A stretch of 35,447 nucleotides of DNA from Sulfurihydrogenibium sp. (GTDB lineage Bacteria; Aquificota; Aquificia; Aquificales; Hydrogenothermaceae). The stretch is taken from contig NZ_JAPYVU010000016.1 in the NCBI RefSeq assembly GCF_028276765.1, positions 1 through 35,447 of the forward strand. The letters are read 5' to 3'. Shown here one piece after another: positions 1 to 35,447 of the stretch. The notes under the pieces are model-generated. The model had not been told where the DNA came from and searched no databases. It was given only the letters and a program-made list of their open reading frames with translations. The translations under genes and the position numbers were made by a program. Numbering within the stretch: the stretch's first letter is position 1; every line of letters begins with the position of its first letter.

Positions 1-224
1 CTTTATAACCCACACGGTTCAGATGTAACTCTTATTATTTAAAGAAAGTCCCAGAGCCGAACCTCCTTTATAACCCACACGGTTCAGATGTAACACAAGC
101 TGGCAAATAATTTAATTGTTATAACTGAATCTTTATAACCCACACGGTTCAGATGTAACCCTCATATACAAATGATAGAAATTTAAAAAAAAGAACTTTA
201 TAACCCACACGGTTCAGATGTAAC
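1..224 (-). CRISPR. CRISPR array 1 (29-nt repeat, partial, 4 repeats visible)
   Basis: Four identical 29-nt repeats at 1-29, 66-94, 131-159 and 196-224, separated by three 36-nt spacers. The leader lies to the right (225-850), so the array is read on the minus strand, where the repeat begins GTTACATCTGAACC and ends GGGTTATAAAG. The window starts exactly at a repeat, so the array probably continues to the left. The repeat can form a small AACC/GGTT hairpin. It is the same family as array 4, of the GTTAC subtype. No cas genes are present to assign a type. Confidence 0.95.
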
Positions 225-850
225 CCGTTAACTTTTAACTCAAAAATAAAATCGCTTACAACCTACTCTATCAATATTCTGATAATCATTATACCAAATT
301 TTTAAAAAACCTGCAAGTTGAAGTTTTTTGCAGCAAACCTCGATATACAGAAAATATATTATTATATTTTATCCTTTAACATCCCATCACAAACCAACCG
401 CTGAAAACCACAAACTCAGAAGCCCGCTGCAAATATCACTGATTAACTTCCCGATCTTGAAAAATTTTAAAATAAAAAATTACAAATTCTCAAAAAATTA
501 AGTATTAAAAATTTCAAAATTAAAAAGTTTAACTCATCAAATACTTACAACTACTCTTCAAAAAATCTCTTTCGAATATTTACTACACAAGCTCAAATCA
601 AACTTCAAAAAATAAAATCACATTACCAATACCTTAGCTTCACTGACTGCTGAATCATCTCACCAAACTATCACAAAATCAAACAAAAATAGCTAAGATA
701 TTGATAAACCAATCTCCAACGTCTCACTTCTCACGTCTCACGTTTCACGTAATATAAGCTTGTGCGGGCTAACCTATTCAATTGCCAAGGTACAGTTAAA
801 AAATTAAAAATTATGTAATAAGTATATCAAAAAAATTTTCTATCTGTCAA
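225..850 (-). promoter_or_regulatory. CRISPR leader L1 (~626 bp, two promoters)
   Basis: Minus-strand leader of array 1, near-identical over its whole length to L2 (3096-3717), L3 (8611-9234) and L4 (33550-34168). The distal promoter is TTGACA at 850-845, then an 18-bp spacer and TATACT. The proximal promoter is TTGCAG at 316-311, a 17-bp spacer and TATAAT at 293-288, ending 63 bp before the first repeat. Five heptad units of ACGTGAR type lie at 716-750. The 41-bp block 247-287 matches L4 and differs from L2/L3, in line with repeat type. Confidence 0.85.
586..764 (-). ncRNA. candidate structured leader RNA, copy in L1
   Basis: Minus-strand P1 is CACAAGCTTA (764-755) pairing with TGAGCTTGTG (595-586) through one G-U pair. 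P2 is 705-693 with 637-625, 13 pairs including G-U. P3 is TGATT (657-653), loop CAGC, AGTCA (648-644). The distance between P1 strands is 159 nt, as in the other three copies. The promoter at 850-845 would transcribe it. This is predicted from pairing alone; no expression data. Confidence 0.5.
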
Positions 851-3095: not shown

Positions 3096-3717
3096 TTGAC
3101 ATGTGAAAATTTTTTTGTATATTTATATTAACTTTTTAATTTTTAAAAGTACCTTGGCAATTGAATAGGTTACCCACACAAGCTTGTTTAACGTGAAACG
3201 TGAGACGTGAGAAGTGAGATGTTGAAAGTTTATTAATCAATATCTTAGTGATTTTTGCTTGATTGTTTGAATGCTTAGCGAGATGATTTAGAAATCAGTG
3301 AAGCTAAGGTATTGATAAAGTGGTTTTATTTTTTGAAGTTTGATTTAAGCTTGTGTAGTTTAGGCTTGAAAGGGATTATTTGAAGAGAGGTTTTAAGTAT
3401 TTGTTGAATTTGACTTTTTAATTTGAAAATTTTTTAATACTTAATTTTTTGAAAATTTGTAATTTTTTATTTTAAAATTTTTTGAGATCGGGAAGTTAAG
3501 GAGTGATATTTTCCGCCCCTTTCTGAGTTTTAGGTCTTCAGCAGTAGGCTTGTGATTGGATGTTAAAGGATAAAATATAATAATATATTTTCTGTATATC
3601 GAGGTTTGCTGCAAAAAACTTCAACTTGCGGATTTTTTAAAAATTTGGTATAATGTTTTACACATTGGCAATTGAATAAGGTTTTTACGAATTTGTTTTT
3701 GAGTTAAAAGTTAACGG
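3096..3717 (+). promoter_or_regulatory. CRISPR leader L2 (~622 bp, two promoters)
   Basis: Plus-strand leader of array 2. Distal promoter TTGACA (3096-3101), 16-bp spacer, TATATT (3118-3123). Proximal promoter TTGCGG (3626-3631), 17-bp spacer, TATAAT (3649-3654), 63 bp before the first repeat. Heptads lie at 3191-3225. The motif TTGGCAATTGAATA occurs twice, near 3154 and near 3664; the second copy is in the repeat-type-specific block 3655-3695. Together with L1, which is inverted, this copy brackets sdhA. Confidence 0.85.
3177..3355 (+). ncRNA. candidate structured leader RNA, copy in L2
   Basis: P1 CACAAGCTTG (3177-3186) pairs with TAAGCTTGTG (3346-3355). P2 ATCAATATCTTAG (3236-3248) pairs with CTAAGGTATTGAT (3304-3316). 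P3 TGATT (3284-3288), loop TAGA, AATCA (3293-3297). P1 strands are 159 nt apart. P3 base pair 4 is U-A here, C-G in L3 and U-G in L1 and L4, which keeps pairing. The heptads (3191-3225) lie between P1 and P2. Function unknown. Confidence 0.5.
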
Positions 3718-3946
3718 GTTTGTAGCCTACCTATGAGGAATTGAAATGTGATTGATTGATTGATTTTTTACACTCTAAAATTTAGTTTGTAGCCTACCTA
3801 TGAGGAATTGAAATACCTATCAATATTAACTTTATTTATTTCATCTTGTGTGTTTGTAGCCTACCTATGAGGAATTGAAATATAAAGTATATATCTATTC
3901 TGAAAAGTCTCTAATAAGTTTGTAGCCTACCTATGAGGAATTGAAG
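3718..3946 (+). CRISPR. CRISPR array 2 (30-nt repeat, 4 repeats, 3 spacers)
   Basis: Repeats at 3718-3747, 3785-3814, 3852-3881 and a degenerate last one at 3918-3946; spacers of 37, 37 and 36 nt. The repeat begins GTTTGTAGCCTACC and ends GAGGAATTGAAA, as in array 3, but position 30 is T instead of C in the first three repeats. The last repeat decays at the ATTGAA end, which is typical of the leader-distal terminus. The ATTGAAA-type 3' end resembles type I-B/III crRNA handles. A very short array: either young or trimmed. Confidence 0.95.
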
Positions 3947-4105
3947 CCTACCAAACATTTTTTGTCCATCATCTTTTGTCAATCTTCTTTCACTTCTCAA
4001 GCCAATAAAAAATCTCACATCTTTATTGCAGTATTACCTATACACAGACTTATTTTTTATGTAAAATAAATAAAGCCATTCAAATACTAATCAAGGACAC
4101 TAAAG

Positions 4106-8610: not shown

Positions 8611-9234
8611 TTGACAGGTAGAAATTTTTTTTGTATATTTATATTAGCTTTTTAAATTTTAACTGTACCTTGGCAATTGAATAGGTAAGCCAGCACAAGC
8701 TTATTTTACGTGAAACGTGAGACGTGAGATGTGAGACGTTAGAAATTGGTTTATCAATATCTTAGTGATTTTTGTTTGATTGTGCGATGGCTTAGTGAGA
8801 TGACTTGGCGGTCAGTGAAGCTAAGGTGTTGGTATGTGATTTTATTTTTTTGATGTTTGATTTAAGCTTGTGTAGTAAATATTTGAAAGGGATTTTTTGA
8901 AGAGTAGTTGTAAGTACTTGTTGAATTTGACTTTTTAATTTTGAAATTTTTAGTATTTAAATTTTTTGAAAATTTAGAATTTTTTATTTTAGAGTTTTTT
9001 AAGATCGGGAAGTTAAAGAGTGGTATTTGCAGCGGGCTTCTGAGTTTGTGGTTTTAAGCGGTTGGCTTGTGCTGGGATGTTAAAGTATAAAATATAATAA
9101 TATATTTTCTGTATATCGAGGTTTGCTGCAAAAAACTTCAACTTGCAGATTTTTTGAAAATTTGGTATAATGTTTTACACATTGGCAATTGAATAAGATT
9201 TTTACGAATTTATTTTTGAGTTAAAAGTTGACGG
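8611..9234 (+). promoter_or_regulatory. CRISPR leader L3 (~624 bp, two promoters)
   Basis: Leader of array 3. Distal promoter TTGACA (8611-8616), 17-bp spacer, TATATT (8634-8639). Proximal promoter TTGCAG (9143-9148), 17-bp spacer, TATAAT (9166-9171), 63 bp before the first repeat. Heptads at 8708-8742. The -35 of the proximal promoter is one arm of a CTGCAA/TTGCAG hairpin. Type-specific block 9172-9212 matches L2. It is the only leader here without a dispersed palindromic element at its distal side. Confidence 0.85.
8694..8872 (+). ncRNA. candidate structured leader RNA, copy in L3
   Basis: P1 8694-8703 (CACAAGCTTA) with 8863-8872 (TAAGCTTGTG), ten Watson-Crick pairs. P2 8753-8765 with 8821-8833 (CTAAGGTGTTGGT), all 13 positions paired when G-U is allowed. 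P3 TGACT (8801-8805), loop TGGC, GGTCA (8810-8814), with C-G at pair 4. Between-strand distance in P1 is 159 nt. Confidence 0.5.
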
Positions 9235-9793
9235 GTTTGTAGCCTACCTATGAGGAATTGAAACTAAGAAGGTTTAACCGAAGGTATTTCTAACCTGTAG
9301 GTTTGTAGCCTACCTATGAGGAATTGAAACGAAAATACAAAATCTTTACGTATGACAAGTAGGTGGGTTTGTAGCCTACCTATGAGGAATTGAAACTTTT
9401 TGGTCGGCCTTACAGACACAGGAATGCCTTTGGTTTGTAGCCTACCTATGAGGAATTGAAACAACAAAGAACAAAGAATATTCTTTGCCAAAACCTTTGG
9501 TTTGTAGCCTACCTATGAGGAATTGAAACACATCTGGATAGTATAGTTCATTTCTTGATTTCTCAGTTTGTAGCCTACCTATGAAGAATTGAAACTCTTT
9601 TTGGATTTGATTAGTTGTTAGAGTAGATGAGGTTTGTAGCCTACCTATGAAGAATTGAAACCCGTCTGCTTTATTATCTTTTTCTACGATGTAAGTTGTT
9701 TGTAGCCTACCTATGAGGAATTGAAAGTCTGGTAAGCGTTGCATTAGCTGTAGAATGACAATTGTTTGTAGCCTACCTATAAGGAATTGAAAC
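9235..9793 (+). CRISPR. CRISPR array 3 (30-nt repeat, 9 repeats, 8 spacers)
   Basis: Repeats start at 9235, 9301, 9367, 9433, 9500, 9566, 9632, 9698 and 9764. Spacers are 36-37 nt. The repeat is the 30-nt GTTTGTAGCC...ATTGAAAC type, with an ATTGAAAC end as in many type I-B/III systems. Variants: repeats 6 and 7 share a G-to-A change (ATGAAGAATTG), repeat 8 ends in G, and the last repeat has TATAAGG. Open reading frames across this region are artefacts of the repeat. The last spacer (9728-9763) resembles the dispersed element arm. Confidence 0.97.
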
Positions 9794-19116: not shown

Positions 19117-19956
19117 ATGTCAAAAAAAGCGTTTTTAACTCTTGCGCTGATTGTAGGCTTGCCGTTTTTAGTTTGGTTTGCAGGCAGTCAATCAACTGCT
19201 TTGAGAAGCTTGGCTAAGACAAATCCTTCATCTACTCCTTCAATGCCTTCCAAGGAAGCTGTTTCTGCTAAGCTTGCTACCTTGGAGCGTGGATGGGTTA
19301 AAAACGAAGGACAGTGGGATCAAAGAGCTCTCTTTTCTGCTCCGGGATATTTTGGCACTACATGGGTGACTAAGGATGGTGAGCTTTTGCATGTAGCAGT
19401 CAAGAAAGAAGAATGTAAAGAAAAAACAGCAAAAATCAAAACATGTCCTACCAAAAGCTGGGTGGTTTCTGAACGCTGGGTAGATGGTAAGGTTCAAGCT
19501 ATAAAGGGAGAAGAGGAGCTTGGAACAAAAGTAAACTACTTTATAGGCAACGACCCTTCCAAGCACAAATCTGGACTTTCTACTTACAGGTATGTTTCTT
19601 TAGGTGAAGTATGGTCTGGAATAGAAGTAAAGCTGAAAGCTACTCAAAAGACAGTAGAAAGGTTATTTTACGTCAAGCCTGGTGCTGACCCTTCTAAAAT
19701 TCAAGTACAGCTAAATGGTGCAAAAGGTTTAAAGCTTTCCAAGGATGGAGAGATAATTATCAAAACTGATTTGGGAGATTTAAAGCTATCCAAGCCTGTA
19801 GCATGGCAGGAAAAAGACGGCAAAAAACTTCCAGTAGAAGTCTCATACAAGCTAATTGATAAAAACCGCTACAGCTTTGTGGTTGCAAAAGCAGACCCAA
19901 GCTTGCCTATTGTGATTGACCCAATCTTACAGTCTACATATTTGGGGGGGAAGTGA
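19117..19956 (+). CDS. SBBP-repeat secreted protein, N-terminal part (frame ends at G7 tract)
   Basis: 279 aa ending at TGA just after a run of seven G. Residues 1-20 are a signal peptide/TM (AFLTLALIVGLPFLVWFAG). Residues about 40-275 match the DUF7948-type domain found in front of SBBP propellers (WVKNEGQWDQRALF, NYFIGNDPSKHKSGLSTYRYV, VWSGIEVKLKA, VIDPILQSTYLGG). The following frame (19916-21751) continues the same protein: with six G the junction reads STYLGGSDGDTAYTLTIHP, an exact repeat unit. So this is one gene of about 878 aa broken by a 1-nt insertion, by phase variation or by sequencing error. GGAGG lies about 8 nt before the ATG. Its G+C appears higher than in neighbours. Confidence 0.8.
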   Translation: MSKKAFLTLALIVGLPFLVWFAGSQSTALRSLAKTNPSSTPSMPSKEAVSAKLATLERGWVKNEGQWDQRALFSAPGYFGTTWVTKDGELLHVAVKKEECKEKTAKIKTCPTKSWVVSERWVDGKVQAIKGEEELGTKVNYFIGNDPSKHKSGLSTYRYVSLGEVWSGIEVKLKATQKTVERLFYVKPGADPSKIQVQLNGAKGLKLSKDGEIIIKTDLGDLKLSKPVAWQEKDGKKLPVEVSYKLIDKNRYSFVVAKADPSLPIVIDPILQSTYLGGK

Positions 19957-21751
19957 TGGCGATACCGCATACACCCTTACTATTCATCCTACAACAGGTG
20001 ATATCTATGTGGCGGGAGTTACCTCTTCAACCAACTTTCCTAAAACTACCGGCGGAGCGCAGGGAAGCCTTGGTGGCGGAAGCATCGGTATCGATGCCTT
20101 TGTATCAAGACTAAACTCAAACCTTACTCAGATTATCCAGTCTACCTATCTGGGTGGGAGCGATTCCGATTTTGCCACTACCATTGCTATTCATCCTTCA
20201 ACGGGTGATATTTATGTAGCAGGATGGACTGATTCAAGCGACTTTCCTAAAACTACCGGTGGAGCACAGGGAAGTTATGCAGGCAATAGCGATGCTTTCG
20301 TTGCAAGACTAAACTCAAACCTTACTCAAATCATTCAGTCTACCTATTTAGGTGGAAGTAAGGATGATTGGATCAATGAGCTTATCATTCATCCCGCAAC
20401 GGGTGATATCTACGTAGTAGGAGGAACTGAATCCACTAATTTCCCCAACACTACCGGTGGAGCACAGGGAAGTTATGGTGGAGGCGTTAACGACGCTTTC
20501 GTTGCAAGATTAAATTCAAATCTTACTCAAATCATCCAGTCTACCTATTTAGGTGGAAGTAAGATTGATGTGGTCGGCTCCCTTGCTATTCACCCTTCAA
20601 CTGGTGATATTTATGTAGCAGGTTACACTAATTCTACCGATCTTCTCGCCACTGGAGCACAGAAAAGTAATGCTGGCAATAATGATGCTTTCGTTACAAG
20701 ATTAAACTCTAATCTTACTCAAATCATCCAGTCTACCTATTTAGGTGGAAGCAATGATGATATGGCTCTTGCCCTTGCTATTCACCCTTCAACCGGTGAT
20801 ATCTATATAACAGGAAAGACTAGCTCAACCAACCTTCCTAATACTACTGGTGGAGTACAGGGAAGCTTTGGTGGTGGAGATTATGACGCTTTCGTTGCAA
20901 GACTAAACTCAAACCTTACTCAGATTATCCAGTCTACTTACCTGGGAGGAAGCGATAAAGATAAGACTGATACCATTGCTATTCATCCTTCAACGGGTGA
21001 TATTTATGTAGCAGGATGGACTGATTCAAGCGACTTTCCTAAAACTACCGGTGGAGCACAGGGAAGTTATGCAGGCAATAGCGATGCTTTCGTTGCAAGA
21101 CTAAACTCAAACCTTACTCAAATCATTCAGTCTACCTACCTAGGTGGAAGCAATAATGATTGGGCTAATGCTCTTGCTATTCATCCTTCAACTGGTGATA
21201 TCTATGTAGTAGGAGGAACTTATTCCACCGACTTTCCTAATACTTCTGGCGGGGCACAGGGAAGCTTGGGCGGTCGCTATGACGCCTTTGTGGCAAGATT
21301 GTCTGCTGGTTTGACGTCTGGCTACATTCTGTTCATTAGTCCAAAACCTACAAACGGAAATGTTGCATCAAGCCCTGGGGGTATAAACTGTGGCTCCGGT
21401 GGCTCTGCATGCTCTATAGACTTCTCAGGTACAGTAGCACTGACCGCTACACCAAACACTGGCTATACCTTTGCAGGATGGACTGGTGATTGCTCTGGTT
21501 GTGGCACCAATACAACATGCAGCATAAACATCACCGCTAACAAAACATGCTCCGCTAACTTTACAGCAAGCAATAGTGGCGGTGGTTCTGGTAGCGGCTC
21601 TGGTACTGGCAGTGGTAGCACTTCTGGTGGTGGCGGTGGCGGATGTTCTATGGTTGGCTCCGTATCTCCTATGACAGGCCTGTGGAACATCTTTACATGG
21701 CTACTTGTCCCAACCTACGTGTTAGCAAGAAGAATAAGAAGAATGAAATAA
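19916..21751 (+). CDS. SBBP-repeat protein, propeller and C-terminal sorting region
   Basis: Continuation of the gene above; the nominal TTG start is not meaningful. It holds seven SBBP units of about 66 aa, each with IHPxTGDIYVxG, TTGGAQGS, DAFVxRLNSNLTQIIQSTYLGGS: the first unit straddles the G7 tract, so the seven-bladed propeller closes only in the repaired frame. Residues about 475-555 are an InlB B-repeat-like domain (GYTFAGWTGDCSGCG). A Gly/Ser linker leads to GGGGGGC (C577), a hydrophobic segment and RRIRRMK, which resembles a GG-Cys CTERM sorting signal. Blades 2 and 6 share 168 identical bases. The product is expected at the outer surface. Confidence 0.82.
   Translation: MTQSYSLHIWGGSDGDTAYTLTIHPTTGDIYVAGVTSSTNFPKTTGGAQGSLGGGSIGIDAFVSRLNSNLTQIIQSTYLGGSDSDFATTIAIHPSTGDIYVAGWTDSSDFPKTTGGAQGSYAGNSDAFVARLNSNLTQIIQSTYLGGSKDDWINELIIHPATGDIYVVGGTESTNFPNTTGGAQGSYGGGVNDAFVARLNSNLTQIIQSTYLGGSKIDVVGSLAIHPSTGDIYVAGYTNSTDLLATGAQKSNAGNNDAFVTRLNSNLTQIIQSTYLGGSNDDMALALAIHPSTGDIYITGKTSSTNLPNTTGGVQGSFGGGDYDAFVARLNSNLTQIIQSTYLGGSDKDKTDTIAIHPSTGDIYVAGWTDSSDFPKTTGGAQGSYAGNSDAFVARLNSNLTQIIQSTYLGGSNNDWANALAIHPSTGDIYVVGGTYSTDFPNTSGGAQGSLGGRYDAFVARLSAGLTSGYILFISPKPTNGNVASSPGGINCGSGGSACSIDFSGTVALTATPNTGYTFAGWTGDCSGCGTNTTCSINITANKTCSANFTASNSGGGSGSGSGTGSGSTSGGGGGGCSMVGSVSPMTGLWNIFTWLLVPTYVLARRIRRMK
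19944..19950 (+). other. homopolymeric G7 tract at the frameshift
   Basis: TTT followed by seven G and AAG. Seven G ends the frame at TGA within 9 nt; six G (or nine) restores the beta-propeller frame. Slippage-prone tracts of this kind switch surface proteins on and off in some bacteria. Confidence 0.85.
20179..20346 (+). repeat. 168-nt exact repeat inside SBBP gene (blade 2 copy)
   Basis: Identical to 20971-21138, exactly 792 bp (four blades) downstream. Other blades differ at many silent sites, so this identity reflects recent duplication or gene conversion. Confidence 0.9.
20971..21138 (+). repeat. 168-nt exact repeat inside SBBP gene (blade 6 copy)
   Basis: Second copy of the 168-nt identity (see 20179-20346). 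The first mismatch after it is at 21139 versus 20347. Confidence 0.9.
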
Positions 21752-33549: not shown

Positions 33550-34168
33550 TTGACAGGTAGAAAATTTTTTGTATATTATTAGCTTTTTAATTTTTTAACT
33601 GAATCTTGGCAATTGAATAGGTAATCTGCACAAGCTTGTTTAACGTGAGACGTGAAACGTGAGATGTGAGACGTTGGAGTTTGGTTTATCAATTATTTAG
33701 TGATTTTTATCTGATTGATTGATAACTTAGTGAGATGATTTAGAAGTCATTAAAGCTAAAGTATTGATAATGTGATTTTATTTTTTGATGTTTGATTTAA
33801 GCTTGTGTAGTGATAGTTTAGAATGGATTTTTTAAAAAGTAGTTGTAAGTGCTTGTTGAAATAGATTTTTTAATTTTGAATTCTTTAATGCTTAATTTTT
33901 TGAAGATTTGTAATTTTTTATTTTAAAATTTTTTGAGATCGGGAAGTTAAGGAGTGGTATTTGCAGCGAGCTTCTGAGTTTGTGGTTTTCAGCGGTTGGC
34001 TTGTGATGGGATGTTAAAGGATAAAATATAATAATATATTTTCTGTATATCGAGGTTTGCTGCAAAAAACTTCAACTTGCAGGTTTTTTAAATATTTGGT
34101 ATAATAGTTATAAAAATATTGATAGAGTAGGTTGTGAGCGATTTTATTTTTGAGTTAAAAGTTAACGG
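33550..34168 (+). promoter_or_regulatory. CRISPR leader L4 (~619 bp, two promoters)
   Basis: Leader of array 4. Distal promoter TTGACA (33550-33555), 16-bp spacer, TATATT (33572-33577). Proximal promoter TTGCAG (34077-34082), 17-bp spacer, TATAAT (34100-34105), 63 bp before the first repeat. Heptads at 33643-33677. Type-specific block 34106-34146 matches L1 rather than L2/L3. Confidence 0.85.
33629..33807 (+). ncRNA. candidate structured leader RNA, copy in L4
   Basis: P1 33629-33638 with 33798-33807, 159 nt apart. P2 ATCAATTATTTAG (33688-33700) with CTAAAGTATTGAT (33756-33768): pair 9 is U-A here versus C-G in the other copies, a compensatory change; pairs 7 and 8 are mismatched in this copy only. 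P3 TGATT (33736-33740), loop TAGA, AGTCA (33745-33749). Confidence 0.48.
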
Positions 34169-35316
34169 GTTCCATCTGAACCGTGTGGGTTATAAAGTCT
34201 CATCGCTAAGTCTATCTATCAACACAAACCTGCTTGTTCCATCTGAACCGTGTGGGTTATAAAGATTTGACAGTTCTTGTTCGGGTGGTTCTTGTTCTTT
34301 TCGTTCCATCTGAACCGTGTGGGTTATAAAGTCGGTAATACTTGCTCTGGCATTACAATAGCTTCTCTGTTCCATCTGAACCGTGTGGGTTATAAAGTTA
34401 CTAAGCATGGTACTAGGATTATTTTTTCTTGGAGTTCCATCTGAACCGTGTGGGTTATAAAGGCTATAGAGTTTAGTATGGTTATTTGTTTTTCTAGGTG
34501 TTCCATCTGAACCGTGTGGGTTATAAAGAAGATAAAGGTGAGTGAACTTGTGTATTCCATTTTTTGTTCCATCTGAACCGTGTGGGTTATAAAGAATAGC
34601 TTCCTTTTTGGCATTTTTAAGGTTTTTATTTGTTCCATCTGAACCGTGTGGGTTATAAAGGTTTTGGTAAAAACCTCTTGAGAACAAAAAAAACAGTGTT
34701 CCATCTGAACCGTGTGGGTTATAAAGTTAAGGTATAACGCACTTGATACAGCCTTCGCAAGCTGTTCCATCTGAACCGTGTGGGTTATAAAGAAAGGATT
34801 GCTAAGTCTTTTATGAAGTATAAGATAAGTTACATCTGAACCGTGTGGGTTATAAAGCATAAAATAAAGCTAAAAATTGATATAAAAACGATTGTTACAT
34901 CTGAACCGTGTGGGTTAGAAAGTATCAATTTTCAACCAAGACATACAACTTAACACCAGTTACATCTGAACCGTGTGGGTTAGAAAGGATTATCTCGGAC
35001 GGAAATTTTCTATTGATAGAAAAGTTACATCTGAACCGTGTGGGTTATAAAGAGTTTTCGTCTGAGTTTGGAGAAGATGTAAAGTATTCGTTACATCTGA
35101 ACCGTGTGGGTTATAAAGACACTGCAAGAGTATTATTATCTTTGAGAACTGTCAACGTTACATCTGAACCGTGTGGGTTATAAAGATGTTGTCTTGCCGC
35201 TACCGTCTATACCTTCTAATAGTTACATCTGAACCGTGTGGGTTATAAAGCCATCTTCTTTACCTCCTTAAAAATTTTTATTTACACGTTACATCTGAAC
35301 CGTATGGATTATAAAG
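34169..35316 (+). CRISPR. CRISPR array 4 (29-nt repeat, 18 repeats, 17 spacers)
   Basis: Repeats start at 34169, 34236, 34303, 34369, 34434, 34500, 34566, 34632, 34698, 34764, 34829, 34894, 34959, 35024, 35090, 35157, 35222 and 35288. Spacers are 36-38 nt. The ten leader-proximal repeats begin GTTCCATCTG; the eight distal ones begin GTTACATCTG, as in array 1. Repeats 12 and 13 (34894, 34959) end TTAGAAAG. The last repeat is degenerate (CCGTATGGATT). Spacer 35186-35221 encodes, on the minus strand, LEGIDGSGKTT, the thymidylate kinase P-loop. ORFs over this interval are artefacts. Confidence 0.97.
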
Positions 35317-35447
35317 TGATTATATGCTTTGTCCAATAATAGAAAATCATAGAATAGTCTATTTTTTTCTGCATACGTTTTATTGCTTTTCTTTAATTAA
35401 TTATACACTACGCTAATAATTATTCATTGTTAAAAACCTATTAATAA
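35317..35447. other. AT-rich tail after array 4, nothing recognised
   Basis: No repeat, gene or clear promoter. AT-rich sequence downstream of the degenerate terminal repeat, to the end of the window. Confidence 0.5.

Follow-up and report, generated by a model that had tools for sequence, protein, structure and literature searches.

A boxA-type element, a candidate anti-repeat and a nested hairpin in the long CRISPR leaders of Sulfurihydrogenibium

The window, by which we mean the whole stretch of 35,447 nucleotides that was analysed, comes from a Sulfurihydrogenibium-like genome of 1.75 Mb in 84 contigs. It contains four CRISPR arrays with their leaders, L1 to L4, in which promoter sequences, boxA-type motifs and a nested hairpin of three stems, P1 to P3, are found (Table 1). 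The leader, about 560 nt long, is present in about 27 long copies in its own genome; the close relative S. yellowstonense SS-5 (G006) has more, and G003 has two full copies. A search for extra copies on viral contigs found none. The distal promoter is kept in nearly all copies, L008 and L017 being without it. The initial annotation had placed a TTGACA-N16-18-TATA promoter in all four window leaders, and this is correct, the scan recovering it for L2 and L3 and inspection by eye for L1 and L4. By eye, the leader RNA could plausibly end at a terminator ahead of the proximal promoter; the scan finds none, and the candidate was dropped. Elsewhere in the window, a 393-399-bp tandem repeat of about 3.3 copies (19974-21274) lies within the open reading frame 19916-21751, which probably encodes a repeat-rich surface protein. 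In G003, the same transposase-like gene end is located upstream of a truncated CRISPR leader (L062/L205, at 1561 kb) and of the 16S promoter (L109), directly so at the leader.

Table 1. Positions of leader and array features in the window.
Feature	Position	Strand	Basis or remark
L1 CRISPR array	1..227	-	repeat 2; cut by window end
L1 nested hairpin	586..764	-	alignment row L016
L1 distal boxA-type element	773..788	-	motif search
L2 distal promoter (TTGACA, 16 nt, TATATT)	3096..3123	+	consensus scan 11/12
L2 distal boxA-type element (CCTTGGCAATTGAATAGG)	3152..3169	+	motif also before 16S, 23S, tRNA, tmRNA and CRISPR arrays in the family
L2 candidate anti-repeat (GT-T-ACCCACAC)	3169..3179	+	complementary to repeat GTTCCATCTGAACCGTGTGGGTTATAAAG; overlaps P1 5' arm
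L2 nested hairpin P1-P2-P3	3177..3355	+	fold and alignment analyses
L2 P1	3177-3186/3346-3355		outer span 179 nt, arms 159 nt apart
L2 P2	3236-3248/3304-3316		
L2 P3	3284-3288/3293-3297		
L2 proximal promoter (TTGCGG, 17 nt, TATAAT)	3626..3654	+	read from sequence; under scan threshold
L2 proximal boxA-type element (TTGGCAATTGAATAAG)	3665..3680	+	exact motif match; about 37 nt before array; mainly at repeat-1 arrays
L2 CRISPR array	3717..3947	+	repeat 1, 4 repeats
L3 distal boxA-type element	8670..8685	+	motif search
L3 nested hairpin	8694..8872	+	alignment row L006
L3 proximal boxA-type element	9182..9197	+	motif search
L3 CRISPR array	9234..9793	+	repeat 1, 9 repeats
L4 distal boxA-type element	33606..33621	+	motif search
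L4 nested hairpin	33629..33807	+	alignment row L025; two P2 mismatches
L4 CRISPR array	34169..35317	+	repeat 2; leader without proximal boxA

The nested fold reported by the initial annotation is found in all four window leaders where it had been placed, including the separation of the P1 arms and the two mismatches in P2 of L4. An alignment of 42 leader copies, drawn from three Sulfurihydrogenibium genomes, shows it again. Compared with dinucleotide shuffles, the 179-nt fold of these 42 copies is far more stable, with mean z values of -4.2 (leader strand) and -4.0 (opposite strand); the flanking stretches have z values mostly around 0, except for about 3480-3660, with a z of about -2.5. The RNA had been presented as conserved across leaders generally, which is too broad: P1-P3 is limited to these three genomes of a single genus, and all or part of it is missing from at least six natural leaders. 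Outside Sulfurihydrogenibium we did not find P1-P3; only the P1 edges recur in G020, as CACACAA and AAGCTTGTG, making about five pairs. A post-boxA hairpin conserved across all genera was considered and rejected, as the 100 nt following the boxA in other genera are generally not well folded. A search of the window against Rfam matched the CRISPR repeats only, with none for P1-P3. Heptamer repeats (ACGTGAG or ACGTGAA) are located inside the hairpin at 3187-3225 and in L045, L047 and L072; the same heptamers occur at many unrelated places in Sulfurihydrogenibium and G040.

Substitutions that preserve pairing had been taken as support for the fold, an argument that does not survive the larger alignment. 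Over the 42 copies, 96.1% of the cells pair, against 95.9% with shuffled partners, and 118 of 500 partner shuffles reach the same level; double changes are found in three pairs, where 2.0 are expected. In a tree-based test of the claimed pairs, using an APC-corrected G statistic, none exceeds background. The two pairs put forward as compensatory show the same: pair 9 of P2 (3244-3308) is CG in 23 copies, UG in 15, UA in 2 and unpaired in 2, with no association between its two sides, and pair 4 of P3 is UG in 29, CG in 12 and UA in 1, with changes nearly all one-sided. The P2 pair 3243-3309 is broken in 17 of the 42 copies, and permuting letters within columns hardly alters the folding energy (z -1.1). 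The stems vary little, so the power of the covariation test is limited.

A weaker signal is left in the substitutions that do occur. About 96% of all pairs are kept and P3 is never broken (100% of its pairs kept in the 42 copies). Columns in the stems exceed the rest both in conservation and in compatibility with pairing: among variant cells in stem pairs, 69% are still paired, against 35% under a null in which stem columns are swapped for non-stem columns of equal consensus letter, and none of 2000 such replacements reaches 69%. In stem pairs with a Watson-Crick consensus, read on the leader strand, variants to G-U number 58 and variants to A-C 20, where the null gives 41 and 55; the p-values, about 0.004 to 0.006, are approximate because copies from the same genome are related by descent, probably with conversion. 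Without the four window copies the counts are 70 and 20 (p = 0.004). Since a DNA palindrome would treat both kinds of change alike, the excess of G-U over A-C favours pairing of the leader-strand RNA, and we consider that the P1-P3 hairpin probably forms in RNA. Of the stand-alone structured RNA proposed initially, this leader-strand hairpin is the part that stands; a covarying new family is unsupported.

That P1-P3 might nevertheless be an independent structured leader RNA, a guide, regulator or decoy with the boxA beside it incidental, would agree with its stability, the retention of its pairs and the wobble bias just described, and a terminator-like hairpin with a T-run before the proximal promoter, seen by eye and not found by the scan, could end such an RNA. 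We regard this as improbable given the absence of covariation, the restriction to three genomes of one genus and the Rfam matches of the window to CRISPR repeats only; the flanking boxA and anti-repeat, described below, suffice to account for a conserved 5' edge.

Six leaders without all or part of P1-P3 are followed by arrays of only 1-5 repeats, whereas the arrays behind full leaders have 4 to 23 or more (p = 0.0003), a difference that connects the distal leader with the growth or maintenance of the array. These short leaders cannot single out P1-P3, because much else is deleted from them too, and some may be mere remnants. The short arrays would also fit inverted repeats that act as DNA, for instance as sites for Cas1-Cas2 or an architectural protein in spacer integration, as would the equally strong z on the opposite strand and the palindrome AAGCTT in the P1 arms, the 5' arm being itself palindromic (ACAAGCTTGT). 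Such a role is difficult to reconcile with the unequal G-U- and A-C-type changes and with deletions that extend far beyond P1-P3; moreover, P1-P3 is more than 350 nt from the first repeat, which integration signals usually adjoin. We therefore hold a DNA function of the inverted repeats to be improbable as well.

The P1-P3 fold begins 9 nt downstream of TTGGCAATTGAATA. This motif just upstream of P1, together with the anti-repeat overlapping the 5' arm of P1, is the broadly conserved element of the leader, overlooked in the initial annotation. The own genome contains 41 exact matches to TTGGNAANTGAATANG, 39 in CRISPR leaders, one at 16S (C66) and one at a tRNA-Asn gene (C59), and a reversed control pattern gives no match in any of 41 genomes. 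A phylum-wide pattern search with CCTTGGCAATTGAATAGG finds CRISPR leaders and, in G003 and G006, a site before 23S rRNA. At the rRNA locus of G003 (L109), a variant of the motif is located 57 nt before 16S and an exact copy 45 nt before 23S. The 23S copy lies within the rRNA operon, between the tRNA genes and 23S, which makes the motif an element of the transcript and no part of a promoter. Within the family, it is also present before 23S at L130, L134, L144 and L159, before tRNA-Arg at L123 and L127, and directly before tmRNA at L115; L140 and L143 complete, with the last three, a set of sites before tRNA-Arg, tmRNA and tRNA-Asn genes. In relatives it is found 30-280 nt before CRISPR arrays of several unrelated repeats. 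The classified matches are thus restricted to stable RNAs and CRISPR arrays, a few in the family being unclassified, some of them owing to their position at a contig end. In one further case (L079, G017:C175, reverse strand 1501-1540), the motif occurs in a CRISPR spacer (CTTGGCAATTGAATAAGTAAACGCAGGTGCAGG...), which may target either a CRISPR leader or an rRNA spacer, in its own species or a related one.

From its occurrence before rRNA, tRNA, tmRNA and CRISPR arrays, we read the motif as the rRNA-type boxA of the family, and it very likely acts as one. The name rests on genomic context, because the match to the proteobacterial boxA GTTCTTTAAAA is loose, about 6 of 11 positions compared by eye; by eye it resembles the TTTGAAAACTGAATA form from Gram-positive rRNA spacers.

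Two kinds of leader can be distinguished in the family, one with the boxA about 30-45 nt before the array, the other with the boxA farther upstream, at a distance of about 230-300 nt and ahead of a common core with GGAGGTTYRVTGCAAAAAAC. The window leaders look like the second kind, plus a second boxA near the array where this is of repeat 1. In the own genome, the distal leader is common to two unrelated CRISPR repeat families, and the proximal module largely tracks the type of repeat: a proximal boxA is present in 14 of 15 classified repeat-1 leaders versus 6 of 25 repeat-2 leaders, and 18 of the 25 repeat-2 leaders have an unrelated proximal sequence. The idea that the whole 560-nt leader is one conserved unit was therefore rejected; it is modular, and its proximal part goes by repeat type. 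The core contains, family-wide (L160-L181), AATAGAAAATATATTTCTG as a repeated element, and GGAGGTTYRVTGCAAAAAAC, which looks like either a ribosome site with a tiny ORF (MQKTSIC-like) or a hairpin. A conserved small ORF of this kind at GGAGGTTNNNTGCAAAAAAC was not retained, as it was recognized by eye only and its frame and length vary.

P1-P3 fills the gap between boxA and core. This gap has a length of about 350 nt in the window leaders, compared with about 95 nt in G020 and about 35 nt in G018. Such growth is what would be expected of a passive, lineage-specific insert kept by copying or conversion of leaders among arrays, and the recurrence of its internal ACGTGAG heptamers elsewhere in the genome and the lack of covariation point the same way. 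A passive insert would not explain why stem columns are more conserved and pairing-compatible, with twice the expected share of variant cells still paired, or why P3 is never broken, and we consider it rather unlikely.

In the rRNA operon of the family, the computed pairing of the strand following the boxA with the trailers amounts to -44.6 kcal/mol for 16S (shuffle -23.8) and -49.3 kcal/mol for 23S (shuffle -26.0). In the CRISPR leaders, the corresponding strand contains a degenerate match to the complement of the repeat, the anti-repeat. In L2 its duplex amounts to -15.1 kcal/mol (shuffle -8.6), and it is the best pairing site for repeat 2 in the whole leader. In a set of 19 leaders from 11 genomes, the antisense match to the own repeat is greatest directly after the boxA, with a mean z of 1.67, a pattern that was noticed before it was tested and in which leaders within one genome are not independent; in the same leaders, other offsets and the sense orientation give values of about 0. 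Two paralogous leaders of G004 precede arrays that differ in repeat, and each pairs better with the repeat of its own array (-19.6 versus -9.0 and -14.6 versus -6.8). Among the 42 leaders of the own type, pairing with repeat 2 is stronger in leaders that precede repeat-2 arrays than in leaders that precede repeat-1 arrays (p = 0.0008), and the two groups do not differ in P1 (p = 0.15). The anti-repeat was undetectable in the leaders of G013, G018 and G019. In G013 (L171, L179), the strand behind the boxA, GCTGAAAGGG, has a perfect complement in CCCTTTCAGC of the leader core, possibly another long-range helix. Taken on these pairing data, a function for the anti-repeat has, in our estimation, slightly less than an even chance.

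Whether the leader as a whole is an rRNA-operon-like transcription module, with a boxA, an attached hairpin and a strand that pairs with later RNA, we regard as evenly balanced. In such a module, for which Nus binding, tethering, transcription itself and any effect on crRNA output are what we infer, the distal promoter would start a transcript carrying the boxA within about 30-50 nt. The boxA would recruit a Nus antitermination complex, and the Nus-loaded polymerase could cross the long untranslated leader and the array without Rho termination. The post-boxA strand, kept tethered at the polymerase, would pair with RNA that is made afterwards: in the rRNA operon with the trailer, forming the leader-trailer helix, and in the CRISPR leaders of the family with the array repeats, through the degenerate anti-repeat. 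In the Sulfurihydrogenibium clade, the strand would also make P1, closing a 159-nt insert with P2 and P3, so that the 3' arm of P1 would be its first partner, ahead of the array repeat. P1-P3 is thus most likely a hairpin of the pre-crRNA 5' leader that competes with, or delays, leader-repeat pairing. The P1 and anti-repeat helices would compete because both use CACAC; taken by itself, competition between anti-repeat pairing and P1 is unlikely. The full proposal, that CRISPR arrays copy the rRNA logic, a boxA-tethered anti-repeat pairing with nascent repeats and the Sulfurihydrogenibium P1-P3 competing so as to switch pre-crRNA folding or processing, is offered tentatively, as somewhat improbable.

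BoxA elements upstream of CRISPR arrays are already known (PMC12691694): they precede natural arrays, and adding boxA to synthetic arrays raises pre-crRNA (PMC7862264). Both articles cite Stringer et al. 2020 (eLife 9:e58182) for boxA-mediated antitermination of bacterial CRISPR arrays. The window leaders share with that system, as it is described there, a boxA-type element between leader promoter and array that is common to rRNA operons. They differ from that description in that two tandem promoter-boxA units are possible in one 560-nt leader, in the presence of the motif also at tRNA and tmRNA genes, and in the anti-repeat and long hairpin downstream of the boxA, which appear to be new. In E. 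coli, boxC, which adjoins boxA, has been proposed to stay at the polymerase until the trailer emerges (PMC10250234). The pairing of a post-boxA strand with later RNA, seen in the 16S and 23S of the family, is alike, whereas in the CRISPR leaders the partner would be a CRISPR repeat or the 3' arm of P1 and there is no rRNA trailer. Leader-repeat hairpins have been described for type VI arrays (PMC13187072) and leader-first-repeat structures for type II arrays (cited in PMC12814883). They have in common with most leaders considered here, those of G013, G018 and G019 being the exceptions, a leader RNA complementary to its own repeat. In those systems the hairpin is made between part of the leader and the first repeat. 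The arrays here are of other types, and their complementary strand, placed behind the boxA about 230-550 nt before the first repeat, makes no local hairpin with it.

For the CRISPR leaders of the family, an rRNA-like boxA module that includes an anti-repeat is broader and better supported than a stand-alone RNA family. If it is correct, it would give a reason why these thermophiles have very long leaders in many copies, and boxA control, known for rRNA and CRISPR, would in one lineage also include tRNA and tmRNA. It also suggests that boxA tethering may be a general way for distant RNA strands to pair during transcription.
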